IMG/VR virus record: IMGVR_UViG_3300024351_000051
Coordinates: 1 to 35,469 of that record
DNA length: 35,469 nt
Reading direction: 5' to 3' (one strand)
DNA from: a virus
Positions 4,700 to 30,243 of this stretch are shown piece by piece (position 1 is the stretch's first letter; every line of letters starts with the position of its first letter). The translations under genes were made by a program, and so were the position numbers. The notes under the pieces are model-generated. The model was given only the letters and a program-made list of their open reading frames with translations, was not told the origin of the DNA and ran no database searches.

Positions 4700-7600
4700 A
4701 TGGCAACAGACCGACTCGGACTCAGGAACCCATACTTCTTGGACTCTGCTGAGGCCGAGCGAGGGGTTCGATCAAGGGACTCTGGCTTCTTGAGCGGCGA
4801 TCTGGAGTTTGACGTCCAGGCCCCGAGCACCAGTGCGTCCGTGATGCGGGACTCGATGAACAGCGAGGTCAGCCAATCTCGACAGACTGCGCCATCAGGT
4901 CGAAGGGTCGCCCCTGGATTCATGGCTGGCGACATGGAGATCGATCCGGATTACAAGCCTCCGGTTGCTGAGCCTCAGCCGACCGCCAAGAAGGTCGCTG
5001 ACGAGGACTACGGCTTCCAGCCCATCAATGCCTTGAAGAAGGGCTTCAAGGGTCTGGGTCTGACCTGGGACTTCCTGGCCAACCGGCTTGAGAAGGCTGT
5101 CACTGGCGACACCAAGGACACCGCTCCCATCCTGGCCAAGAGCGTCGAGGAATACAACCAGATCGCCTCTGATCCTCGCATCGGCAAGATGGTCAAGGAG
5201 GCCGACCAGAAGTACCAGGACGATGGTGTGGTAGCAGCCACCGGCTCAATGCTGGGCTGGATGGTTCGCAACCCGACGATGGTTGCCAACTTCCTGGCCG
5301 AGCAGATTCCTGGCGCTGCCGTTGGTGGCGGTATCGGTGGTGTGGCCACGGCTCCGCTCAAGAGTGCTGCTGCTGGTGCCGCAGCTCGAGCTGGCGCAAG
5401 CAAGGCCGTGCAGTCCGCTGTCGGCACTGGCGTGACCGGTGCAGGCATCAACACGTCTGCCGTGGTGTTCCAGTCCCTGGGCACGAACTACACCGAGGGC
5501 CTTCAGAAGTTCGATGGCGACACTGAGGCTGCTGCCGAGTACGCCGTCAGCAAGACTGCCGGTGAAGTACCGGCCAACGCTGTGGCTGGCGCGTTCCTGG
5601 GCATCAATCCGTTCAAGTCCAAGGTCGCCAACATCCTCAACCAGGCGAACATCCAGGGCATCGGTGGCGCTACCGGTGCCTACATGGCATCCAAGGCTGT
5701 CGGTGAGGATGCGAGCTTCGGTGAGATGGCGCTCGAGTACCTGGGCGAAGGCTTGACCGCACCCGGCGAGATCGCTGCCGTTGGCGTAGAGAAGTTCCGT
5801 GGCAAGCCGCAGGAGCAGGGGCCCAATGCCCCACCGAATCCTGTGAGCGATCGTAATGCTGGCGAGCCTCCTGCTGGCCCTGGCATGTCGCCCGTCCAGA
5901 TGCAGGAGTTCGTCAACGACTCCCGCTCTGTGCCGTTCTTTGCCGCCCTGTACCAGACGGCGGACGATGCCACCAAGACGCAGATCGAGCAGGCGATGGG
6001 CCGAAGCGATCAGCTCGAGGCATTCCAGACGGCTATCAACAACGTCCAGTCGATTGAAGATGGCAATCGCCTGGTTCAGCAGAACGGGGACTTCGCCAAC
6101 TTGGTGCTTGGGTCTCTGGATCCGTTCCTGAAGACGCCGCCTCCAGCCGGTGTGTACAAATCCACACCGCCCAGCTTGGCTCGGGCAGCTAGTGAAGATG
6201 CTTCATTCGGCTCTGACGAGAACCTCGCCTCTCTTGAAGAGGAGATCCAACGGTCTCGCGCTGTTCGAGAGTTTGAGCGAGAGCAGCCTGGTGGGCTCGT
6301 ACCCAGTCAAGCCAGTAAAACCGGCGTCGAACCTGCTTCTTCAACTGAGACTCCCGCTACCGAACCGATCGTAGCCCAGACGACAGATGGCACTCAAAAC
6401 GAGCCACTGACAGTCGGCACAGCCCCCTCGATCAGCAACATCGAAGTCTCTCGCGGAGACGGTAGCTCCCTGTTCGTGCCGTCAGTGCGCTTCGAAAGTC
6501 GCGGCATGACCGCTTCGATGAGTGGCAGAGAGTTTGAGCTGCAACTAGCTGGGCCAGTTCAGCCTGGAGCTATCAGCTTCTCGTCGGTCAGGGTCACGCC
6601 AGACGCCACCTACTTTGGCGGCAGTTCTGACAGGTCAAGCAACCTGCTTGCGTGGGTTGATGGCCAGTCTATTGCCATCGAGGAACCGTCTACCTCAAAG
6701 ATGGTTCGTCTCGACAGATCGTCTCCTGGCGGCTCCGCCGAGACTGCCTTGCGCAAGGCTGTCGGGGACGCGGCAGTTGATGCTTTCCTCTCCTCTGATC
6801 CATCAAATGCTCAGTCTGCGGTGTCTCAAGCCATTCTGGGCATGGACATCAATCCAGAGATCCAATCTGCGCGGAAGCTGTTTGATCGATCATTCTCTGC
6901 AACACAGGTCGCCGAGAGCGATGCGACTTCCGCCACGTCCGTGGCGCAGGACTCGTTCTCGCAACTTCAGACAAGCCTGGAGCAGCGGGGTGCTGAGGCG
7001 GGCTCGATCAAGCGTGTCAAGAACCCTTCCCACCTGAACAAGATCGCCAAGCTGTTTGGCGTCGAGTTGTTTGCCTACAGCTACAACGGCAGCGATGCTC
7101 GCCTGAAGAAGCTTGCTGGCACCAACATCACGTCCCCGACTGGCAAGTCGATCATCGGCATCAACGTCACCCAGTCACCCAAGGCGTCACTGTTCGTCCT
7201 TGGCCATGAGGTGTTCCACGATCTGGCCCGTCGTTTCCCGCAGCAGGCCCAGTCGCTGAGCCTTGAGATCAAGTCTTACCTCCAGGCCAACCGGTACGAG
7301 GACTACAAGAAGTTCTACGAGTCCAAGAACCAGACAGAGAAGACGGACGAAGAGGTTGCAGCCGATGTGCTCGGAACCCTGTTCACGGACAAGAAGTTCT
7401 GGGAGCAGCTTGGAGTGCGCAACCAACCTCTGCTGGCTCGCATCCTGTCGGTCATCGACAACCTGATCGCCAGCTTCAAGGCCAACGCCGACTCCGGTCG
7501 GATGCAGATCAAGCAGTTCATCACCGAGTACGAGAAGGTGAGGGACAGGGTCGCATCCTTTGTGACCGAGACCCAACAGGGCAAGCCTTCTCAGTCCCAG

Positions 7601-10600
7601 GTTGGGACTGCCACGGATGAGATGGCTGATCTGCCGATCGACCAGGTGCGTCAGCTCCTGGCTGAGAAGAGGATCAGTGATGCGGCCAAGCTGTTCAAGG
7701 CCAGCAACCTCCAAGCTCAGGGCTTCGACTTCTCGCAGGTGGCGAGGGAGGCTGGCGCACGGGTGATTGGTCGTTCTGTGGTGAAATCAGACACTGCGGA
7801 AGCCCAGGCACCGAGCGGCACTACAAGCGAATCCGACAGTGTCCGGACTGAGGGCGCGACTCAGCCTGCGGCTACCGCACCTACCATAAAGAAGGGTCCT
7901 CCCGACCGCTTCGAAAATAAGAACATCACGCTCAGCGACGAAGATCTGCGTACCGTTGAGGACGAGGTGCGGATCGTCAAGGACTTGCTGAGAAACGCCA
8001 AGTTTGCCCAGCGAGAAAGCCTTAAGGCTAAGTTCCTCCAGGAGGCAAAAGACTCCTTCGACAAGTTTGCACTTGGCGCTCAAGGCCAGAGCTTCAACGA
8101 TCTGGAGAAGCAGGTTGCAGAAGAGAAGGCTAAGAATCGCACCCCTCGGACTGAGCCGACTGCGGAGAACGTGATCCGCTCCCGTGTACGTCGCCTGATG
8201 ACGGCTGCTGACAGCACGGCGGAAGATCGGGCCAAGCTCGAGCAAGAGGCCAAGAAGGCCAAGAAGGATCAGGAGAAGGCGGCCAATCAAGTCTCGAACG
8301 TCGATGACATCGAAGATCCCAATCGCTTTGCCGACACCCTCGGTGAGCGTGCGGACGATGCAATCGGCAAGGAAGAAGGCGAGCCGAAGGCCGACAAGCG
8401 CGTATCTGACAGCATCATTGAGCAGCAGCGCAAGCTCCTGAAGCGTCGCGCCAACGAGGTTGCCAGCAACCCCGACGTGATGATGGGCGAGCTGCTCAAC
8501 ATCAAGTCTGAAGCCGAGAAGGCTGGGCTGTCCGCTGAGACGATCGCGGACATCTTCGACACACCGATGGCACAGATCAAAGCTCTGGCTGACGGCTTGA
8601 TGTCTGAGGTCAAGGCTGACGAGCAATTGACGGACGTCACTGACGAGACCAACGTCGAGCAGCAGCCTGCCGATGCTGGCGAGCCGATCACCAGCTATAA
8701 CGCGGCGCGTAATGCCGTTCAGGCCATAACGCAGGGCGTTACTAGTGGGCGGATCACGGTTGATGGAATCACCCGTGTGCTGCAACTGGCGCGTCGTGAC
8801 GCCAACTTCTCGATCGGACAACTGATCCAGGCGATGCAGGAGGAGGGGATCGAGGTTCCATCCGTGTTCGATCGGATGAATGGCCGTCCGTTCACGCAGC
8901 CCTTTGTTGCCTTCGTATCCAGCTCACCCAACCATCCGGTGGCGCGTCAGGAGTGGTTCACCTCCCTGGATCGAGCCTTGCGTGAGTCAACCTCCGCAGA
9001 GAAAACCACCATCCTGAGTCAGCTCACCAGCGTTGAGCGCGAGCTGTACAACGACTGGAAGGCCAAGAACTCCCGCGCACCGGTAGATACCGACAGCAAG
9101 GATTTGCTCAAGGTCTTCCCGAACTCTCTGTTCACCAAGTTCAGCCTGACCCAGATGCGCAACCCGGAGAGCATCCCGCAAGGGCAGCTCCCGCTGTCGG
9201 TTCGCTCTGGCATCGTGGACTTTGTGCAGGACTGGTATGCCGACGTCTCCAACGCTCTGACCTACCGGCCCGACATGGCCCGTCAGATCCTTGGCGCTCT
9301 GGCTCCCCAGGATCTCAAGGCGTTCACCGCGTGGCGCAAGGCACAACAGCGGGCCACTATGAAGAAGGCCGAGGTGATCGGTCGCTCGGTTGACTACGGC
9401 AACCTGATGGGTCTGCGCTTCATCGGCCCCATGCTGACCGATGCCTACAAGCAGCAGCTCTCCCTGGCCGACCAGTTCATGGCCAAAGAGGCTGTAGCCT
9501 GGGCTGCTCGCATCGACGCACTGATTGAGCGGGTCAACCAGGATCAGAGTCTGTCGCCGCAAGATCGCAAAAATGCGATACGGGACATCACCTACCGTGA
9601 GCTGAACCGGATCCACAAGACGATCCACAACCGCGCCAGGAAGCTGGCTGACACGACAGACAACGCCGACTCGTTCGCCAACTGGGTTGCCGAGATGAAC
9701 GAGCGCATGTCTCGTCCTGAGCAGCAGCAGGGTCGGACGGACGAAGGCGAGTTCGTGGCGATTGAGGAGCGGGCAGACGAATCGTTTGACGACATGGCGT
9801 CCCGCCTGGGTGACGCACTGTTCCGTATCGGCAACGGCGAGACTGGGTCTGTCGCATCGACGGTGCTGGTGCAGTCCCAGGTGTCCGAGATCATGGGCAC
9901 CTTCAAGTCTGCTGCCAACGTCAAGGTGGTCGGCAACCCGTCGCATCTGCCTGACGGCGTGCGTGAGCGTTTGATGAAGCGTCTGACCAACGGCTACATG
10001 CCCAAGGGTCTGTACGACGCGCAGACGGGGAACATCTACATGTTCTCCGAGGCTGCTACATCTGAGCACGACACCCAGTTCACCCTGTTCCACGAGCTGT
10101 ACGGCCACTTCGGTCTGCGTGCTTTCCTGGGCGACACCTACACCGACTACTTCACCTCGCTCTACAACGGCAACAAGGCTATCCGGGAAGCAGCTAACAA
10201 GCAGAAGGAAGGCCGCAACATCTCCAACGCTGTGGCGGTTGAGGAAGCCCTCTCCGACATGGCTGGCGATGGCAAGTTCGCTGGCGTCATCAAGGGTGTG
10301 GTCGGCAAGCTGATCAAAGCCCTGCGTGATGCAGGCTTCGAAGGTGTTGCAAACTGGCTGAGTAAGTTCACAGATGCCGAGGTTATGTACGTCCTGCGTG
10401 CCGCCCGTGATGCGGCTCGCAACGGCGGCGTGCCTGTGCTCAACGGCGCACCTGCCGACGTGCTTCTGTCCGAAGTGCGGATGCCGTACGAGATGTACTC
10501 GACCAAGGACGGCGAGACGACTGCCTACGCCCGGTACAACCCGGTGACGATGCAGTGGTACGTGTTCACGCCCAAGCAAGGCTCGAGCAACATCAACACG

Positions 10601-13426
10601 GACTACCAGTCCACCACGATGCCGCACGACAAGTTCGATGACGTGCTGGCTGAGATGAAGCGCCACGGCAAGACCATGCGCCGGATGCGCTCTGGCCTGT
10701 TCGTGGACAACCGCATCCCGACCGACAACGTCCAGATACAGGATCCCCGTGAGACTGGCTGGTTCAAGAAGGCGATGTACTGGGCTGCAATCCGTGCCCA
10801 GAACGAGTACCTGCCGATCTTCAAGGTGGTTCGCCAGCTCGAGAAGATGGGTCGGATGTCTGACTTCATGAACCCCATGAAGGCACTCAAGCTGATGGAG
10901 CGCAAGACTGCTGCTCGCCTGGAAAAGCAGGTTGAGGAGAAGTTCGTTCAGCCCATCGCCGCCCTGCTGAAAGAGGGTGGTGCCAAGGGCATGACGTACG
11001 ACGACGTCAACAAGTTCCTGCTGGCTCGGTTTGCCCCAGTGCGCAACGAGCAGATCGCCAAGATCAATCCCAAGAGGCCTGACGGCGGCTCGGGCATGGG
11101 AACCAAGGAGGCCAAGGACACGCTTGCCAAGTACGCGCAGTCCTCCTACGCCACCGAGCTGAACGCGATCGCCAAGCTGATGGATCAGATGAGCAACGAC
11201 AAGCTCAATGGCATGGTCGCTGACGGGATGATCACCGCCCAAGAGGCCCAGAAGATGAAGGCGGCGTACCCGTACGGCTACGTCAACCTGTCTGGCCAGA
11301 GCAAGGAGAACTCCAAGTTCGATGAGGACATTGATCCGCTCGAGCTGGCTGGTGGTCGCAAGCTGAACCTGCGCGGCAAAGAGAAGAGGGCGATGGGTCG
11401 TGGTGAAGGCGACGTCGCCAGCGACATCCTGGTTCGCACCATTGCCGCCTACGAAGCCTCGATCATCCGTGGCGAGAAGAACCGTGTGGCCCAGACCGTC
11501 CTGGCGATGGCCGAGAGCAACCCGGATCCCAGCTTCTACATGGTCAACACCCAGGCCTGGAAGCGTGAGATCGGTGAGGACGGCATCGTCCGCGAGGTGC
11601 TGGACAAGGAGTACATCCGTCGTCCGGACGTGTTCGTCGCCAAGGTGCGCGGCATCCCGGTCACGATCGAGTTCATGGCGATGGGTGATGGCACTGTTGC
11701 GCAGGCGCTACACGGTACTGTCTACCCGCCTGAGGCCAACATGGTGGTGACGCTCCTGCGGACGTTCAACAACAAGATCGGTCAGCTCATCACGACCTAC
11801 AACCCTGCGTGGGCAGCGGTCAACTTCATCCGCGACGTACAGACCATGTACTTCAATGCGGCTGCTGATGGCCGGATCACCAAGGAGATGGCCCGCACGA
11901 TGCTGCGTGACCTGCCCAAGGCGATCCGTACGTCCCTGCATGTGGCTGGCTGGCCTGTGCAGCCCGACCCGCGTTGGCTTGAGGCCTTCAACCAGATGAA
12001 AGAAGACGGTGGCCTGACCGGGTTCTCCATGCGCGAGCCGCTGGAGAAGAAGGTCAAGGAGATCGAGCGCGCCCTGGCTGGCAAGGACAAGAACTTCCTG
12101 GAGAAGCTCGGAGACTTTGCCGAGAAGATCACGCTGCCGATGGAAATGGCAACCCGCCTGTCAGCCTACAAGACGGTGCGCGACAACGGCTTCACCCGCA
12201 CGGATGCCGCTGTGTTCTCCGGCGAGATCACGGTGGACTTCAACGCCCGTGGCAGCGCCCAGGGCCTGCGTGCCATGTACCTCTTCTTCAACCCTGCGAT
12301 CCAGGGCACGGCGAAGATGTACCAGCTCATGCGGGATAACCCTAAGCAGGTAGCCAAGTACGCCTTCGCTCTGGCTGGGATGGGTGCCCTCACCAATCTG
12401 CTGGCCCGTGCGCTGGGCGGACAAGGCGAGGACGGTGAGGACAAGCTCGATCAGTTGCCCACCTTCAAGCGAGCCACGTCGATCGTCATCTACCCCGATA
12501 TGCCGCTGGGTGCCATGCCGATTGCCTATGGCTGGAACGCCTTCTTCGCTGTGGGTCACTTCGGCGTGGACTGGATGCTGGGCAAGCAGACCCTGACGGA
12601 GACCGCCAAGCGCATCGGCACGACGGCTATCGAGGCCTTCCTGCCTGCCGGTAGTTCTGGCCTAGAGTCGCAGAGCACGATCGGCAAGATCGCCAAGGGC
12701 CTGACGCCTACGGCTGGCCAGCCCATCCTCGAGTACCTGATGAACGAGAACCGGTACGGCGCTCCCATCAAGATGTCGGGCAGCACGTTCGGTGGTGCGG
12801 AGAAGCCTGAGTCGGAGATGGCCTTCCGGTCGGTGAACCCGATTTCGAAGATGATCGCTCAAGGCGCAAATCGCGCTACTGGCGACGGCCTGACCAGCGG
12901 AACCAAGTTCCTGCCAGGGATGATCGACTTCAACCCGGCAGCGATCGATCACTTTGTGGCGGCGTACATCCCAGGCTTCGCAACCGAGATCTACAAGGGT
13001 GCTGGCCTGATGGTTCGGGTGGCCCGTGGCGAAGAGATCGCTCGCACTCCGCTCCCTCTGATCGACCGCTTCTCGGCGTATCCGCCTGAGGGCTTCGATG
13101 CTGGCGCATTCCGGCGTCTGGCCACCTTCGTGGACACCCGCTGGAACGCCTTCAAGAACACGGAGAGCGAGGCTGAGGCTGACGCAATCAGGGCGAAGTA
13201 TCCAGAGCTGGGCGATGCCAGGGCAATCGTCTCGGGTACCGAAAAGCTGGTACGCAAGCTGAACAGCGAGATCGCCTTCCTCGACAATACGAAGATGTTC
13301 CCTGAATCTGAGCGCGTTCAGATGATGAATGAGCGCAAGGAAATGCTGAAGAAGGTCTACGGCGAAGCCGTCAAGGAAGCGTCGAAGCTGGGTAAGGAAT
13401 ACCGGGAGGCCATACGAGCCAACTGA
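4700..13426 (+). CDS. Giant (2908-residue) polyvalent ejection-type protein with two zincin-like metallopeptidase motifs
   Basis: One uninterrupted frame of 8.7 kb. Residues ~190-305 are Gly/Ala-rich and hydrophobic, possibly membrane-interacting. A first zincin-like domain lies near 780-930: HEVFH at 836-840, with a candidate third ligand in DEEVAADVLG (~883-892). Around 1130-1200 there is a charged coiled coil (LEQEAKKAKKDQEKAANQ). A second metallopeptidase-like motif is HELYGH at 1798-1803 (HExxxH spacing), followed by EEALSDMA. The C-terminal ~550 residues resemble the LPD38-type domain of phage large polyvalent proteins: NPAWAAVNFIRD from 2368 and FNPAIQGTAKMYQ from 2530. Known from the family: polyvalent proteins are packaged or injected with DNA and carry several effector domains. 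Inferred: virion protein, ejected with DNA. It is much larger than T7 gp16 (~1300 residues) and I see no lytic transglycosylase or RNA polymerase signature. Confidence 0.75.
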   Translation: MATDRLGLRNPYFLDSAEAERGVRSRDSGFLSGDLEFDVQAPSTSASVMRDSMNSEVSQSRQTAPSGRRVAPGFMAGDMEIDPDYKPPVAEPQPTAKKVADEDYGFQPINALKKGFKGLGLTWDFLANRLEKAVTGDTKDTAPILAKSVEEYNQIASDPRIGKMVKEADQKYQDDGVVAATGSMLGWMVRNPTMVANFLAEQIPGAAVGGGIGGVATAPLKSAAAGAAARAGASKAVQSAVGTGVTGAGINTSAVVFQSLGTNYTEGLQKFDGDTEAAAEYAVSKTAGEVPANAVAGAFLGINPFKSKVANILNQANIQGIGGATGAYMASKAVGEDASFGEMALEYLGEGLTAPGEIAAVGVEKFRGKPQEQGPNAPPNPVSDRNAGEPPAGPGMSPVQMQEFVNDSRSVPFFAALYQTADDATKTQIEQAMGRSDQLEAFQTAINNVQSIEDGNRLVQQNGDFANLVLGSLDPFLKTPPPAGVYKSTPPSLARAASEDASFGSDENLASLEEEIQRSRAVREFEREQPGGLVPSQASKTGVEPASSTETPATEPIVAQTTDGTQNEPLTVGTAPSISNIEVSRGDGSSLFVPSVRFESRGMTASMSGREFELQLAGPVQPGAISFSSVRVTPDATYFGGSSDRSSNLLAWVDGQSIAIEEPSTSKMVRLDRSSPGGSAETALRKAVGDAAVDAFLSSDPSNAQSAVSQAILGMDINPEIQSARKLFDRSFSATQVAESDATSATSVAQDSFSQLQTSLEQRGAEAGSIKRVKNPSHLNKIAKLFGVELFAYSYNGSDARLKKLAGTNITSPTGKSIIGINVTQSPKASLFVLGHEVFHDLARRFPQQAQSLSLEIKSYLQANRYEDYKKFYESKNQTEKTDEEVAADVLGTLFTDKKFWEQLGVRNQPLLARILSVIDNLIASFKANADSGRMQIKQFITEYEKVRDRVASFVTETQQGKPSQSQVGTATDEMADLPIDQVRQLLAEKRISDAAKLFKASNLQAQGFDFSQVAREAGARVIGRSVVKSDTAEAQAPSGTTSESDSVRTEGATQPAATAPTIKKGPPDRFENKNITLSDEDLRTVEDEVRIVKDLLRNAKFAQRESLKAKFLQEAKDSFDKFALGAQGQSFNDLEKQVAEEKAKNRTPRTEPTAENVIRSRVRRLMTAADSTAEDRAKLEQEAKKAKKDQEKAANQVSNVDDIEDPNRFADTLGERADDAIGKEEGEPKADKRVSDSIIEQQRKLLKRRANEVASNPDVMMGELLNIKSEAEKAGLSAETIADIFDTPMAQIKALADGLMSEVKADEQLTDVTDETNVEQQPADAGEPITSYNAARNAVQAITQGVTSGRITVDGITRVLQLARRDANFSIGQLIQAMQEEGIEVPSVFDRMNGRPFTQPFVAFVSSSPNHPVARQEWFTSLDRALRESTSAEKTTILSQLTSVERELYNDWKAKNSRAPVDTDSKDLLKVFPNSLFTKFSLTQMRNPESIPQGQLPLSVRSGIVDFVQDWYADVSNALTYRPDMARQILGALAPQDLKAFTAWRKAQQRATMKKAEVIGRSVDYGNLMGLRFIGPMLTDAYKQQLSLADQFMAKEAVAWAARIDALIERVNQDQSLSPQDRKNAIRDITYRELNRIHKTIHNRARKLADTTDNADSFANWVAEMNERMSRPEQQQGRTDEGEFVAIEERADESFDDMASRLGDALFRIGNGETGSVASTVLVQSQVSEIMGTFKSAANVKVVGNPSHLPDGVRERLMKRLTNGYMPKGLYDAQTGNIYMFSEAATSEHDTQFTLFHELYGHFGLRAFLGDTYTDYFTSLYNGNKAIREAANKQKEGRNISNAVAVEEALSDMAGDGKFAGVIKGVVGKLIKALRDAGFEGVANWLSKFTDAEVMYVLRAARDAARNGGVPVLNGAPADVLLSEVRMPYEMYSTKDGETTAYARYNPVTMQWYVFTPKQGSSNINTDYQSTTMPHDKFDDVLAEMKRHGKTMRRMRSGLFVDNRIPTDNVQIQDPRETGWFKKAMYWAAIRAQNEYLPIFKVVRQLEKMGRMSDFMNPMKALKLMERKTAARLEKQVEEKFVQPIAALLKEGGAKGMTYDDVNKFLLARFAPVRNEQIAKINPKRPDGGSGMGTKEAKDTLAKYAQSSYATELNAIAKLMDQMSNDKLNGMVADGMITAQEAQKMKAAYPYGYVNLSGQSKENSKFDEDIDPLELAGGRKLNLRGKEKRAMGRGEGDVASDILVRTIAAYEASIIRGEKNRVAQTVLAMAESNPDPSFYMVNTQAWKREIGEDGIVREVLDKEYIRRPDVFVAKVRGIPVTIEFMAMGDGTVAQALHGTVYPPEANMVVTLLRTFNNKIGQLITTYNPAWAAVNFIRDVQTMYFNAAADGRITKEMARTMLRDLPKAIRTSLHVAGWPVQPDPRWLEAFNQMKEDGGLTGFSMREPLEKKVKEIERALAGKDKNFLEKLGDFAEKITLPMEMATRLSAYKTVRDNGFTRTDAAVFSGEITVDFNARGSAQGLRAMYLFFNPAIQGTAKMYQLMRDNPKQVAKYAFALAGMGALTNLLARALGGQGEDGEDKLDQLPTFKRATSIVIYPDMPLGAMPIAYGWNAFFAVGHFGVDWMLGKQTLTETAKRIGTTAIEAFLPAGSSGLESQSTIGKIAKGLTPTAGQPILEYLMNENRYGAPIKMSGSTFGGAEKPESEMAFRSVNPISKMIAQGANRATGDGLTSGTKFLPGMIDFNPAAIDHFVAAYIPGFATEIYKGAGLMVRVARGEEIARTPLPLIDRFSAYPPEGFDAGAFRRLATFVDTRWNAFKNTESEAEADAIRAKYPELGDARAIVSGTEKLVRKLNSEIAFLDNTKMFPESERVQMMNERKEMLKKVYGEAVKEASKLGKEYREAIRAN

Positions 13427-13429
13427 TGG

Positions 13430-13888
13430 ATGACGTGCATCGTTGCTTCAGTACCACACCGGGTCATCGTCTCTGACACCCGGTGCAGCGACGACAACTC
13501 GATGGTCAGGGTCTCCAAGATCCGAAGGATCAAGGGTGGCCTGGTCGGTTGTGCCGGCGGGTGGTCTGAGATCCTGTACTTCTGGGACAAGCTCGGCGGA
13601 AAGAGAGTGAAGGACGGAGTCCTGCACGATCAAGCCGACTTCTGTGGCATCGAACTCGCTCGAGAGGGCCTGTACCTGTACGACCCAGCCGGTCGTCGGT
13701 ACCCCATCAAGGACGAGTTCTATGCAATAGGTAGCGGTGGGCCTTACGCGCTCGGCGCTATGGCAATGGGTGCGTCTCCCCAAGAGGCTGTGGCCATTGC
13801 ATCGCGCTTCGATCCAGGCACTGGGTCGGAGATTGAGGTATTGCAACTCAAGGCAGCACGTAATGGCAACACAGGTTCTCAGCGATGA
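13430..13888 (+). CDS. HslV/proteasome-beta-like Ntn hydrolase
   Basis: 152 residues, starting MTCIVASV. Removal of Met would expose Thr as the N-terminal nucleophile, as in HslV (TTIVSV). Other family features follow in order: VIVSDTRCS (Asp16, equivalent to HslV Asp17), VSKIRRI (Lys30, equivalent to Lys33), GLVGCAGGWSEI (cf. GFAGG), and YAIGSGGPYALGAMAMG, very close to the HslV GSGG segment. The length is slightly below cellular HslV (~175). No HslU-type ATPase is visible here. The gene begins 3 nt after the stop of the giant protein (TGATGGATG) with no good ribosome site close by, so it is probably translationally coupled. Cellular HslV is a 12-mer protease; what the phage form degrades or processes is unknown. 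Confidence 0.75.
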   Translation: MTCIVASVPHRVIVSDTRCSDDNSMVRVSKIRRIKGGLVGCAGGWSEILYFWDKLGGKRVKDGVLHDQADFCGIELAREGLYLYDPAGRRYPIKDEFYAIGSGGPYALGAMAMGASPQEAVAIASRFDPGTGSEIEVLQLKAARNGNTGSQR

Positions 13889-25271: not shown

Positions 25272-26444
25272 TTACTTGGACGCCTTGACCAGCAGATCGC
25301 CAGCCATCTTCTCCATCGACACCCGCTCGTCGGTGTGCGGGATCTTGCGAGCACGGGCGGTGATGCCCTGCACGAAGTCCCATACCGACTCAGGCTTGCG
25401 ACCCTCCTCGTTGACCACGGTGTTGATGATGTTCTCCGCCTGGCGCTTGGTGAAACCACGCTTGCCCAGGAACTCCATGCGATCGTCGTCAGACTTGGCG
25501 ACCACCTTCTCCTTGGCGGCGTTGATGCCATTGATGACGTACGTGTCGCTGGCGTTGCTGTACTCCAGGAGCGCAGGCCCAACCTCGGAAGCGAACCGCT
25601 CGGGTGCGTTCTTGGTGTGGCGGATCATCATGGACTGGACGTCCTGCTGACCCCAGAGGTTGCGGTTCTGGCAGACGCCACGCAGCAGGAACGTCGAGAT
25701 GCCCATCGACTTGCTGCCGACCTCGCTGTTCCAGACGTAGAACCCACGGAAGACCAGGTCGGGATTGCCGTCAGGCAGCTTGCCGATCTCGATCGGATGG
25801 GTGTCATCGACCAGGAAGATAAAGACATCCCGGTCACTGGCGTACAGCGTGGTGGTGTCCCGGCTCGGATCAACGAACGGGTTGTATGTACCGTTGCTCC
25901 AGTCGAGAACGCCAGGCACCTTCCACCGGGTGTCGCCGTTGCCGTTGCCAGCCACCTGCTGCACCGCACGGACGATGTCGATGTCCAGCACCCGACCATA
26001 GTTCGGGCCGGTTGCCGCCATGAGCTCGCCGCCCTGCTTGTAGTACGCCTTGATGCCGACGTCCCGGGTATCGACCAGCCCGTATTGCAGGTTGATGCCT
26101 GCGATCTTGGCGGGAAGCTGGCGCAGGTAGCCAGCCGGGGCACCGGCCAGACCGCAGAGCTGACCGAACGACCAGTGATTGGGCGTCACCTCGTCATCGC
26201 CCATGAGCAGGCTGATGTTGTCGTCGTTGACCTGAACCATGATGTCGTCCAGATCCATGACGTCCGTCTTGGCGTGGAAAGATCGGGCCTCGACATGATC
26301 TGCCAGATCCGACAGCGAGAGGAATCGCTGATCGTCCGGGCGGCTGAACCACTGGCTCGAGACTCGACCGTCACGCTGTCCACGGCTGGTGTCCACCTTG
26401 AACGGTGCGGTAACTGGGGTGTTGCTTTCGATGATGGCTTCCAT
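25272..26444 (-). CDS. DUF932 (phage/plasmid-like TIGR03299-type) protein
   Basis: 390 residues. Matches the DUF932 style in order: SQWFSRPDDQRFLSLSDL, WSFGQLCGLAGAPAGYLRQL, PNYGRVLDIDIVRAV, YASDRDVFIFLVDDTHPIEI, FRGFYVWNSEVGSKSMGI, STFLLRGVCQNRNLWG, and a C-terminal helical region (ERVSMEKMAGDLLVKA). DUF932 proteins are frequent in phages, plasmids and conjugative elements. Their biochemical role is not established. CAGGAA precedes the ATG by a suitable distance, and the gene starts 1 nt after a small gene. It is one of three large proteins in the leftward accessory region, near the amidotransferase and amidoligase genes. Confidence 0.8.
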   Translation of the reverse strand: MEAIIESNTPVTAPFKVDTSRGQRDGRVSSQWFSRPDDQRFLSLSDLADHVEARSFHAKTDVMDLDDIMVQVNDDNISLLMGDDEVTPNHWSFGQLCGLAGAPAGYLRQLPAKIAGINLQYGLVDTRDVGIKAYYKQGGELMAATGPNYGRVLDIDIVRAVQQVAGNGNGDTRWKVPGVLDWSNGTYNPFVDPSRDTTTLYASDRDVFIFLVDDTHPIEIGKLPDGNPDLVFRGFYVWNSEVGSKSMGISTFLLRGVCQNRNLWGQQDVQSMMIRHTKNAPERFASEVGPALLEYSNASDTYVINGINAAKEKVVAKSDDDRMEFLGKRGFTKRQAENIINTVVNEEGRKPESVWDFVQGITARARKIPHTDERVSMEKMAGDLLVKASK

Positions 26445-26445
26445 A

Positions 26446-26637
26446 TCAGTTCCTGTTGTGTTGGTCGTCTTGTTGCAGCACGTACCGAATGAAGTTGAGT
26501 AGATCGTGGGCGATGGGCTCGGGGATCATCTCGATCTCTTCCATGTCGATGATGATCTGGGTAATTTCATGAAGCAGATGCTCATCGCTACGACGGTCGC
26601 TGATTAGTTGCCTAACGTGCTGGTGCCAGTTGTCCAT
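26446..26637 (-). CDS. Small hypothetical helical protein
   Basis: 63 residues, acidic and helical: HVRQLISDRRSDEHLLHEIT, QIIIDMEEIEMIPEPIAHDL, LNFIRYVLQQDD. Its ATG shares a base with the previous TAA (CTAATG), and it ends 1 nt before DUF932. No family recognised. Confidence 0.55.
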   Translation of the reverse strand: MDNWHQHVRQLISDRRSDEHLLHEITQIIIDMEEIEMIPEPIAHDLLNFIRYVLQQDDQHNRN

Positions 26638-26849
26638 TAGCCTCCCATCAGCAGCAATGCTGTGGCGATGATGACGCCAGCGGCTACGGCATAGACAACC
26701 GTGTCGGGTCGAAGGCGGAACGGTTCGTCCACCCCTGGCCCGATCAACATGCGTTGCAGTTCTTCTTCGTCACGGCTCATGCGCCGCCGCTTGGGCGGCT
26801 CATAAGCGTGACCGATCTTCACCTTGCCGGTGTTGTACGGAACGGTCAC
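26637..26849 (-). CDS. Small single-span membrane protein
   Basis: 70 residues. A cytosolic basic/acidic N-terminus (EPPKRRRMSRDEEELQRMLI) is followed by one C-terminal membrane helix, VVYAVAAGVIIATALLLMGG. AAGGAG lies before the ATG. The tail-anchor shape suggests the N-terminus stays in the cytoplasm. Function unknown. Confidence 0.55.
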   Translation of the reverse strand: MTVPYNTGKVKIGHAYEPPKRRRMSRDEEELQRMLIGPGVDEPFRLRPDTVVYAVAAGVIIATALLLMGG

Positions 26850-26859
26850 TTGGTTCTCC

Positions 26860-27363
26860 TTAGATCTTGAGTTCAGTCAGTTGCGTGTCTTTGGGCGTGA
26901 TGACGTAGCCCATCTCATCTACGAAGGTTTCAGGGTGGCAAAGGAAACATTGAGCGATACCACGTCCACCAATGCTGGACAGCTTGGACTTGGCGTCCGA
27001 GATCGAAACGCCAATAGCCCAGTGCTGGTTGTTGCTGATCACCAGGTAGCCAACCTCGCTGGTGTCGATCGGCTTCACAGCCGTCGCATCTTTGAGGGCA
27101 GCATCGATCAGTTCTTCTGAGGCAAGGCCGATGAAGTCGTAGCGATGACGGGTGTCTTCCTCACTGTCAGCGAGGTAAAACCCGAACACTTTGCTACCAC
27201 CGTTCTCAGGTTTGCAACCGAACCCACCGGTTGCCTTGAACAATTGGAAGCGCGGCGACTGGTACCGCTTGTTCAAACCTGTTGGACGGATGACACACAC
27301 CTTGTCGGTGATGTCGCCAACCATCGGCTTGATACCCTTAGTGAATACATCTATCAGTTCCAT
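26860..27363 (-). CDS. Hypothetical protein
   Basis: 167 residues with GGAG before ATG 27363. Segments include DITDKVCVIRPTGLNKRYQS, FKATGGFGCKPENGGSKVFG, FYLADSEEDTRHRYDFIGLA, and SEVGYLVISNNQHWAIGVSI. Mixed alpha/beta with four cysteines; the late pair is in CFLCHPETF. I do not recognise a characterised family. It follows the amidotransferase gene but is separated from it by a terminator-like hairpin. Confidence 0.6.
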   Translation of the reverse strand: MELIDVFTKGIKPMVGDITDKVCVIRPTGLNKRYQSPRFQLFKATGGFGCKPENGGSKVFGFYLADSEEDTRHRYDFIGLASEELIDAALKDATAVKPIDTSEVGYLVISNNQHWAIGVSISDAKSKLSSIGGRGIAQCFLCHPETFVDEMGYVITPKDTQLTELKI

Positions 27364-27385
27364 CGGATCTCCAGAAAAGAAGGGG

Positions 27386-27412
27386 CTCCCCCTACACGAG
27401 AGGGAGGGGGAG
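27386..27412 (-). terminator. Terminator-like hairpin after the amidotransferase gene
   Basis: Arms CTCCCCCT (27386-27393) and AGGGGGAG (27405-27412), 8 bp perfect. On the minus strand it is followed by CCCCTTCTTTTCTG, moderately U-rich. It lies 9 nt beyond the amidotransferase stop. Confidence 0.65.
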
Positions 27413-27421
27413 ACCCGTTGT

Positions 27422-28501
27422 TCAGGCTGCGTAGCGTTCGTTGTCCACCACCAGCTCGAGCTGTTGCTGCGGCGACAAGTCCGACTCGCGAGTCGGGATG
27501 GCCCAGTCCACGTAGTAGCAGAGGCACTCCGCCACCAGCTCGGGATCCTTGATGGCCAGACTCATCAGCACGTTGACCCGCTCGTTGCAGATCTCATTGA
27601 CCACCCTGGCGTGGTCGATGCTGAGATGGTTGTCCTGGATGTAGTTGGACTTGAGCGGGATGCGATGCTCGAACAGTGTCGTCAGGACTGTGTACGGGCG
27701 ACGATCCAGCAGGTCGGCTACCGCATGGATGTCACACCACGACGTAACCATTTCGATAAGGTCTTCCGCAACGAAGTCCGTTTTGCTCCAGTCTTCGAAG
27801 TCTTCTTGGTCTTCTTGCTTCGTCGTGTACCAGCGCCGGTCGAGACGGTCTTCCAGTTCGTCTTCTCTTTCCCAGCTCCAGCCGCCGTACGACGCATAGG
27901 CCGAGGCGTAACGAAAGTTGGGGATGAGCAGGCCGGGAGACCATGCGTACGTGTTGCTGAACCACATGCCGTCGTGCTCGATGCCCTGGTCGAAGTTGAC
28001 GTGGGACATCGTGCCGTACTTGTCCATGAACACGAACCTGTTGTTGCCGATGAACTCACCGACCATCGTGCGGAAACCATCGGCATGGACGACAGCCGGG
28101 GCCTCGATCACCGTGTCAACCAGGTAGTCCTGGATGAAGTGCCACGTATCGGACTTGCTCGGATCCTTCTTGTTGCCGGTATCCAGGATGCCGTTGTGCA
28201 TCATAGCTACCTCGCCCTCGATCACTGAGTACGGATGGCAGTTGAACAGGTCGATGTCACCGTGCGTCTTCATCCGGAAGTGAATCGCCATGTTGCGATC
28301 GTCGTCCGGCATGTTGGAGATGAAGGTGTACATCTCATGGATGCTGCGGCAGATCTTCTTGATCACCTTGAGTCCATGCTTGTTGGCGTACATGATGCCA
28401 ACGCCGTCCGAATTGGACTGGTAGATGTCATCGAGCAGGTTGTCGGTGGTCAGCAGGGTGTTGCGGATCTTGTTGGATTCGCCAGTGATGATGAGACACA
28501 T
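27422..28501 (-). CDS. Class II (Ntn) glutamine amidotransferase
   Basis: 359 residues from ATG 28501, with AAGGAG at proper distance; this start puts Cys at position 2 (MCLIITG) as the N-terminal nucleophile after Met removal. Other class II motifs: NSDGVGIMY (30-38), HFRMKTHGD (H74, R76, G81), NCHPY (87-91) and MMHNGIL (H102, N103, G104). These match the glutaminase domain of GATase-II enzymes, which release ammonia from glutamine. The remaining ~240 residues have no obvious synthetase domain, and an acidic stretch (EDELEDRLDRRW) lies in the middle. The amidoligase gene lies 17 nt upstream in the same direction, so the two probably work together, with ammonia handed to the ligase or the glutaminase fold acting as an amide hydrolase. 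Confidence 0.88.
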   Translation of the reverse strand: MCLIITGESNKIRNTLLTTDNLLDDIYQSNSDGVGIMYANKHGLKVIKKICRSIHEMYTFISNMPDDDRNMAIHFRMKTHGDIDLFNCHPYSVIEGEVAMMHNGILDTGNKKDPSKSDTWHFIQDYLVDTVIEAPAVVHADGFRTMVGEFIGNNRFVFMDKYGTMSHVNFDQGIEHDGMWFSNTYAWSPGLLIPNFRYASAYASYGGWSWEREDELEDRLDRRWYTTKQEDQEDFEDWSKTDFVAEDLIEMVTSWCDIHAVADLLDRRPYTVLTTLFEHRIPLKSNYIQDNHLSIDHARVVNEICNERVNVLMSLAIKDPELVAECLCYYVDWAIPTRESDLSPQQQLELVVDNERYAA

Positions 28502-28518
28502 ATTGATTTCTCCTTGAA

Positions 28519-30243
28519 TCAAGCAGCTTGTGCGAAGAGTTCGGGTTGGGAACCTTGAGCAGCCTTGGCGAGGGGATCAGTGTTGGTAGCAGTAGAGCCG
28601 TGGCGATGATTGACGTTGAACCACTTCGCGAGGTTCGGATACATACCGGCTGAGGTCTTCAGCCATTTGAGGAACGAGGACTGGGTCAGGTCGCGATAGC
28701 TGGTGACACGACAGAACATGACAACAGCGTGGGCGAACTCGATCTGCGCAAGCAGGCGTTCCTTCTTGAGTGACGCACGGAAGATGCGGATCTCAACCGT
28801 GTTGCTGTCGCCCCACCGAGTCGATAGTCCCAGGCGCTGACACTCACTAGAGCTGAGGTTCTCGCAGTTGATCATCCGGTACCGACTAGGATCTTTGCCC
28901 TTGAGCGCAGCATTCGGAGATCGGATCACACTGGAGTTGTCCAGTGAGGCGTACTCCTCAGCCTGAGAGTCGCGACGAGGATGACGACCGGCGATCGCAC
29001 GGATGAAGTCCGTGTTCGCCTCGGCGTTGTAGAACTGGATCATCTTGCCCAGCGTCAGCGCAGTGAACGCTTGGCTGTCAATGTGGACGTGCATACCGCA
29101 AGACCGGTTGTTCCAGGCAACCAGTCCGTTGGTGGACTGCCATCCACCCAGCTTCTCGATGTGATCCTTCAGACTAGTTGGTCGAGTCACCCACTCGAGC
29201 GACATCTCACCGACACTGCCGTCGTACTTGCACACCAGGTAGTCTTCGCCCAGCTCCTGACGAACCTCTCTGACCTTGCCGTGCAGCGTGTCGTAGTCCT
29301 TGGCCGCAGTCTCCAGCTCGATGCCCATGTGAAAGTCGCCGTGAGCAGACGACACAAATGACATGTCCTTGCACAGGAACTGCATGACATCTGCGCTGTA
29401 GTCCAGGCGTCGATCCGGATCGTGATCGCTGCCCTCATCGTCGTCGTAGTCATCCTCCTCCTCACGGAGGTGGTACTCGTCGTCAGACTCCCAGTAGTAG
29501 ACGTTGTCGCGCCAGTGGTAGTTACCGTCGTCAACGCAGTACACAACGACGTCGGTGTCGTCATGGCACTCGGGGCAAGCCGTATCGCGCAAGCGACCGT
29601 TGTGATCGGCAACAGGTTTCGCATCGTCCTCAATGCACAAGTGACCGCAGGTTGCAGCAAGTAGGGGGGGAACAGCAGCGGCAATCTTGATCCGGATGCC
29701 ATCGTTGAAGCTGTCTTCATTAGCCAGATCGCAGATGTCGCTCAACAGATCGCTATCGACATCGCAGTCGTCGCGATACTGACGAACAGCCCGTCTCACC
29801 ATGTCACCGAGCTTCCTGTTGCTGCTCCTTGTGCGCAAAATATAAGACGGATCTCCGGCTCCATTGAAGAAGTGCGACTGCCGGTACTTGAACCATCCAT
29901 CTTGCGCATCCTCATCCCACAACATGCGAAGCGAGATGCGGTGACGTGATACATGGTTGCGGATCATCTGAACCAAGATGCGTCGCAACGAACGATCTAC
30001 ATGTCGAGCATCAATCTCTTCAACAACGGTGTTGTCGCTGCGGTAATCAATTGCGCGACGATGTGCGATGTCGCGAGGCAACATGCCGTCGATGTCTCCG
30101 ATGGCATCGGTGTAGCTGAGCTGATCAACTGAGTACGTATACGCGTACTCCTTCATGCGAACAGACGAATACCAGCGGCCAAGAAACAGAGTCAGGATTA
30201 CGGATCCATAGGATCCACGCGAAACAAGGAATTTCATCTTCAT
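28519..30243 (-). CDS. Amidoligase (COOH-NH2 ligase, Amidoligase_2 type) with N-terminal extension
   Basis: 574 residues from ATG 30243, with GGAG six bases before; an upstream TTG at 30255 is less likely. The C-terminal ~270 residues carry the amidoligase pattern of the glutamine-synthetase-like fold: GIELE (307-311), KYDGSV (339-344), SLEWVTRP, CGMHVHID (382-389), and NTVEIRIFRAS (481-491). The N-terminal ~300 residues are unusual: a helical region, four cysteines in CGHLC and CPEC that could bind zinc, and a strongly acidic stretch (REEEDDYDDDEGSDHDPD). The family joins a carboxyl and an amino group with ATP, making peptide-like or amide bonds. Substrate unknown. It is paired with the adjacent class II amidotransferase, a pairing proposed from comparative genomics in phages and bacteria for peptide or cell-wall modification. 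Confidence 0.87.
   Translation of the reverse strand: MKMKFLVSRGSYGSVILTLFLGRWYSSVRMKEYAYTYSVDQLSYTDAIGDIDGMLPRDIAHRRAIDYRSDNTVVEEIDARHVDRSLRRILVQMIRNHVSRHRISLRMLWDEDAQDGWFKYRQSHFFNGAGDPSYILRTRSSNRKLGDMVRRAVRQYRDDCDVDSDLLSDICDLANEDSFNDGIRIKIAAAVPPLLAATCGHLCIEDDAKPVADHNGRLRDTACPECHDDTDVVVYCVDDGNYHWRDNVYYWESDDEYHLREEEDDYDDDEGSDHDPDRRLDYSADVMQFLCKDMSFVSSAHGDFHMGIELETAAKDYDTLHGKVREVRQELGEDYLVCKYDGSVGEMSLEWVTRPTSLKDHIEKLGGWQSTNGLVAWNNRSCGMHVHIDSQAFTALTLGKMIQFYNAEANTDFIRAIAGRHPRRDSQAEEYASLDNSSVIRSPNAALKGKDPSRYRMINCENLSSSECQRLGLSTRWGDSNTVEIRIFRASLKKERLLAQIEFAHAVVMFCRVTSYRDLTQSSFLKWLKTSAGMYPNLAKWFNVNHRHGSTATNTDPLAKAAQGSQPELFAQAA

Follow-up and report, generated by a model that had tools for sequence, protein, structure and literature searches.

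A conserved amidoligase–glutaminase gene pair in a tailed-phage-like viral record and its predicted chemistry

Two adjacent genes and their predicted enzymes

The linear IMG/VR record of 35,469 bases that was analyzed here over its full length (the window) has the gene content of a tailed phage: profile and sequence searches of its open reading frames (ORFs) recovered an integrase, an Erf-like annealing protein, a primase/helicase, a RusA-like resolvase, and a giant protein of 2,908 aa. Because the closest named relatives of one virion protein are Burkholderia, Ochrobactrum, Klebsiella, and Serratia phages of about 60–63 kb, the window probably represents only part of a genome. The giant ORF (4700–13426, plus strand), which contains the large-polyvalent-protein domain LPD38 near its C-terminus (6.3e-21), is recognizable as a phage polyvalent protein. 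It is directly followed by the gene of a 152-aa protein (13430–13888, plus strand) with a borderline match to proteasome beta, an Ntn-hydrolase (22.1 bits, cut-off 22.4). On the minus strand, an earlier note on this DNA had described an amidoligase gene and a class II glutaminase gene separated by 17 nt, and checking of the sequence confirmed their place, strand, spacing, and named motifs. The features of this region are as follows:

28519..30243, minus strand: amidoligase, 574 aa; ATG at 30243, stop at 28519; Pfam PF12224
About 28610–29330, minus strand: catalytic part of the amidoligase, residues 276–515 as counted from an inner Met at 30156
29556..29656 (approximate), minus strand: Cys-rich stretch TCGHLC...CPECH of the amidoligase, a candidate zinc site, followed by an acidic tract
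28502..28518, minus strand: intergenic spacer of 17 nt, containing the RBS of the glutaminase
27422..28501, minus strand: class II (Ntn) glutaminase, 359 aa; ATG at 28501, stop at 27422; nucleophile Cys2
25272–26444, minus strand: DUF932-like gene, starting 977 nt past the glutaminase stop

The start of the amidoligase ORF at 30243 is preceded by GGAG at a distance of 6 nt and is further backed by a relative with a similar N-terminus (L007). In frame, the protein carries the motifs GIELE, KYDGSV, CGMHVHID, and VEIRIFRAS, and it matches the Pfam family Amidoligase_2 (PF12224) with 31.3 bits, above the curated cut-off of 22; the same family is matched by 49 of 50 aligned viral relatives, among which GxExE, DxS, E, CGxHxH, R, N, and ExRxF are invariant. 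The catalytic domain was modelled by AlphaFold2 at good confidence, and the best PDB matches of the model are glutamine synthetase (GS) and YbdK, with gamma-glutamylmethylamide synthetase (GmaS) and the Pup ligase PafA ranking lower. Full-chain TM-scores are low (about 0.25), because the N-terminal extension, which makes up half of the chain, was modelled poorly. The postulated amidoligase fold was thus recovered by family profile and predicted structure alike, which identifies the protein as a GS-like carboxylate–amine ligase with intact catalytic motifs and predicted activity.

The N-terminal part of the amidoligase harbors the Cys-rich stretch, in which the earlier note had seen a possible zinc site. 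A conserved Cys-containing module is indeed present: Cys170 is invariant and Cys197 nearly so among 50 amidoligases, aligned with rows from named phage records left out. The number of CxxC/H motifs across relatives ranges from 0 to 27, and the module therefore varies greatly in size. In two loci, the N-terminal part constitutes a tandem array, with 27 CxxC/H motifs in one (L015, 6548–7795) and 17 in the other (L064, 5765–7777). From its sequence, we infer that this N-terminus may bind zinc and serve as a docking module.

The ATG of the glutaminase at 28501 is preceded by GGAG at 8 nt, and the protein opens with Met-Cys and contains the motifs NSDGVG, HFRMKTHG, NCHPY, and MMHNG. As a single protein it reaches 21.0 bits against Pfam GATase_4, 2 bits short of the cut-off of 23, and 34 of its 42 relatives match this family at an E-value of 0.01 or better. 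A profile alignment pairs it with GlmS from E. coli, and a fold search returned GlmS, GFAT-1, EgtC, and PurF with a probability of 1.00 or nearly so, corresponding to the Ntn-hydrolase fold. Cys2 is kept in 53 of 53 clusters, and R76, T79, G81, N103, G104, and D118 are kept in 51 of 51; the glutamine-site residues were matched to those of GlmS partly via the profile alignment, with an Asp of the glutaminase presumably being equivalent to the glutamine-site Asp of GlmS. By fold, family, and the intact catalytic residues, the gene encodes a class II (Ntn) glutaminase, as the earlier note had assumed, with its activity being predicted. Further downstream and separated from it by three small minus-strand ORFs, the DUF932-like protein scores 22.8 bits against Pfam DUF932 (PF06067; cut-off 23) and 2.9e-46 against phrog_1362, and a phage homologue with 43% identity carries the DUF932 annotation.

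Conservation of the pair in phages and mobile elements

Viral contigs were gathered by amidoligase sequence, a few by glutaminase sequence, supplemented by four named phages, and clustered at 90% identity. All scans considered the best 80 loci, and the resulting proportions describe the nearer relatives, not all amidoligases; many more-distant phage amidoligases exist outside the surveyed set. Within the best 80 loci of the amidoligase-based search, the glutaminase gene lies directly downstream on the same strand in 53 of 56 viral clusters. Two of the three exceptions are explained by contigs that end inside or just past the amidoligase gene (L014, L032), leaving the C. difficile phage AR1086-1, whose amidoligase has no partner nearby, as the sole real exception. 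The partner is likewise present in 66 of the 72 clusters obtained from bacterial genomes together with four more named phages (amidoligase search, best 80 loci). Conversely, the viral scan by glutaminase, for which a narrow alignment was used, found the amidoligase upstream in 45 of 46 clusters (best 80 loci), the single exception starting at a contig end. The spacing between the two genes mostly falls between −10 and +43 nt in relatives and is 17 nt in the window. Moreover, the distances among the amidoligases correlate with those among the glutaminases (rho 0.60, as against a permutation maximum of 0.15; 1,000 permutations, 44 pairs), as expected for two proteins that move together, although common phage ancestry raises rho too. 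Because the conservation is mutual and the key residues of both proteins are invariant or nearly so over about 50 clusters, the pairing exceeds chance and is near-obligate; the check that the earlier note had set, side-by-side conservation in other phages, came out in favor of the pair in both search directions. The pair is carried by many phages and mobile elements.

Several loci depart from the common arrangement. The genome of Butyricicoccus pullicaecorum DSM 23266 contains at least six pair loci on different contigs (L103, L123, L130, L133, L136, L137), and in a Flavobacteriaceae MAG (L101, 1982–7304) one glutaminase gene is flanked by two amidoligase-type genes, followed by an ATP-grasp gene. 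In an Atopobiaceae MAG (L142, 5173–7218), amidoligase and glutaminase share one ORF with an internal Met-Cys: we considered this candidate fusion as extra proof of the pairing and set it aside, since the nucleophile Cys would sit internally, so that a separate internal start is possible. A contig filed under an archaeal Candidatus Nitrosotalea MAG (L098) has the pair in swapped order together with an ATP-grasp gene. Because the neighboring primase, helicase, and polymerase genes look like those of a tailed phage, this contig is probably misbinned, and we drew no conclusion against peptidoglycan as the target from its archaeal label.

A third gene conserved with the pair across clades was found neither in the viral clusters nor in the bacterial genomes and further phages. 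A serine resolvase and a DUF3846 gene often lie just downstream of the pair, recurring only in clostridial elements. None of the PADLOC models matched the amidoligase, the glutaminase, or the DUF932 protein, and a known anti-phage defence system was rejected on this basis.

A probable glutamine-dependent amidation and its alternatives

On balance, we favor the reading that the two proteins form one glutamine-dependent amidating enzyme. Catalysis would be initiated by the N-terminal Cys of the glutaminase, which splits glutamine into glutamate and ammonia, while the amidoligase would use ATP to activate a carboxylate as acyl phosphate. The ammonia would then attack the acyl phosphate, so that a carboxamide results. 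The amidoligase would capture its substrate through the Cys-rich N-terminus, which would also bind zinc. As no further gene consistently accompanies the pair, this substrate probably comes from the host and may be a protein or a precursor peptide of the cell wall. Each of these reaction steps is established for other enzymes with the same folds; for the window proteins, complex formation, ammonia as the nucleophile, and zinc binding are what we infer. By analogy with such enzymes, a GS-like ligase working with a glutaminase would most simply produce a carboxamide from a carboxylate, ATP, and glutamine. This reading draws on the folds and families of both proteins, their invariant catalytic residues, the linkage in both search directions, the distance correlation, the lack of a conserved third gene in the surveyed clusters, and the clear preference of clostridial partners for ammonia-releasing glutaminases over EgtC in profile matching. 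Several observations stand against it: the fold matches include YbdK, GmaS, and PafA, and GS-like ligases can take amines other than ammonia; the class II fold can be that of an amidohydrolase, as exemplified by EgtC; AR1086-1 and a few others have an amidoligase with no partner nearby; and shared phage ancestry would give the same distance signal. More tentatively, the pair may constitute a stand-alone two-gene mobile module for host modification, distinct from the larger phiEco32-type cassette and spread among numerous unrelated phages and mobile elements of clostridia. Its target, a protein or envelope molecule of the host, would be amidated with glutamine-derived ammonia and recognized by way of the rapidly varying Cys/zinc N-terminus.

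Rather unlikely in our judgment, the pair could be a reduced cassette of the phiEco32/LUZ24 type, whose amidoligase couples an amino acid or a peptide, instead of ammonia, to cell-wall stem peptides and thereby blocks superinfection, assisted by the glutaminase. Published work has guessed at a role in modifying the cell wall (PMC5498523, PMC10580990, PMC11318856), which is itself a prediction. The phiEco32 proteins gp84/gp83 and the LUZ24 proteins gp18/gp19, each encoded by adjacent genes, are distantly related to the window pair, with bit scores of about 12–29 (bits being the fair measure for this 16-sequence database) and LUZ24 gp18 being marginal at 12.5 bits. An ATP-grasp gene of the same type as in the cassette is located near the pair in four loci (L064, L051, L098, L101). 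Against a reduced cassette, searches of the window and of 17 long related records yielded no COOH–NH2 ligase, no GGCT, and a single ATP-grasp, in one of the related records, with the phiEco32 and LUZ24 controls scoring. For this particular genome the absence is weak, because the window is a fragment.

We consider a gamma-glutamyl chemistry as in EgtA/EgtC, in which the ligase adds a gamma-glutamyl group that the class II protein later removes, distinctly improbable. It could account for the presence of YbdK, which has a glutamate-cysteine-ligase-like fold, and of EgtC among the structural matches, as well as for GATase_4, a family that includes EgtC-like proteins, being the best single-protein Pfam match; furthermore, GGCT is present in related cassettes. 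Adding and then removing one group with just two genes would however achieve nothing if no host enzyme acted between the two steps, and the clostridial glutaminase partners match GlmS, PurF, and AsnB far more closely than they do EgtC (1.8e-23 for GlmS, just 0.0019 for EgtC); both points make this chemistry less likely. A three-gene system that includes DUF932 besides the amidoligase and the glutaminase is hardly credible: the DUF932-like gene does lie on the same strand 977 nt downstream (1 kb in the earlier note), but a homologue turned up near the pair in just 3 of the 56 viral clusters, each closely related to the window (L006, which is the same virus, L007, and L089, about 4 kb away), and the cyanophages and Erythrobacter and Mesorhizobium phages with DUF932 relatives are absent among the phage records that match the amidoligase. 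The proposed membership of DUF932 was consequently rejected on co-occurrence, the gene not being near the pair in the remaining 53 clusters.

Returning to the glutamine-dependent amidating enzyme, the near-obligate linkage suggests ammonia transfer as the shared core reaction, and with the other cassette genes missing, the linked amidoligase and glutaminase would offer a minimal two-protein system for direct substrate testing.

Relation to described systems

The earlier note had regarded the system as a candidate for an undescribed one, a view that has to be withdrawn: amidoligase and GATase genes have been reported in the Methylophilales (OM43) phages MEP401 and MEP402 and in more than 30 metagenomic relatives, with functions yet to be explored (PMC10580990). 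The MEP401/MEP402 pair comprises the same two families in the same order with homologous catalytic domains, the proteins being about 22–32% identical to those of the window; its genes overlap by 10 nt, whereas the window genes are 17 nt apart. Moreover, a “peptidoglycan modification” cassette is common to RIO-1, phiEco32, LUZ24, and others (PMC5498523; related cassettes in PMC3890496 and PMC3517423). Predictions for phage amidoligases date from 2009, when cell-wall modification was proposed for phiEco32 (Iyer et al. 2009, as relayed in PMC10580990, PMC11318856, and PMC11253131); none of the papers found in this analysis assigns a substrate to a phage amidoligase. Like the window, phiEco32 and LUZ24 encode an Amidoligase_2-type ligase and a class II glutaminase in adjacent genes (gp84/gp83 and gp18/gp19), to which their cassette adds a COOH–NH2 ligase, a RimK-like ATP-grasp, and GGCT. 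Since these further enzymes are missing from the window and, apart from one ATP-grasp, from its long relatives, the window appears by its gene content as the pair-only form of a described kind. An adjacent amidoligase and GATase also occur in Mycobacteriophage Marvin (gp105/gp106) and in Arthrobacter phage Ottawa (gp65/gp66), which has GGCT as well; both pairs are distant in sequence from that of the window. A further parallel is provided by two-subunit glutamine amidotransferases such as MurT/GatD, whose synthetase is not homologous to the window amidoligase and whose glutaminase GatD belongs to class I. The working principle is nevertheless alike, with a separate glutaminase and an ATP-dependent, carboxylate-activating subunit that are encoded together (PMC3267633).
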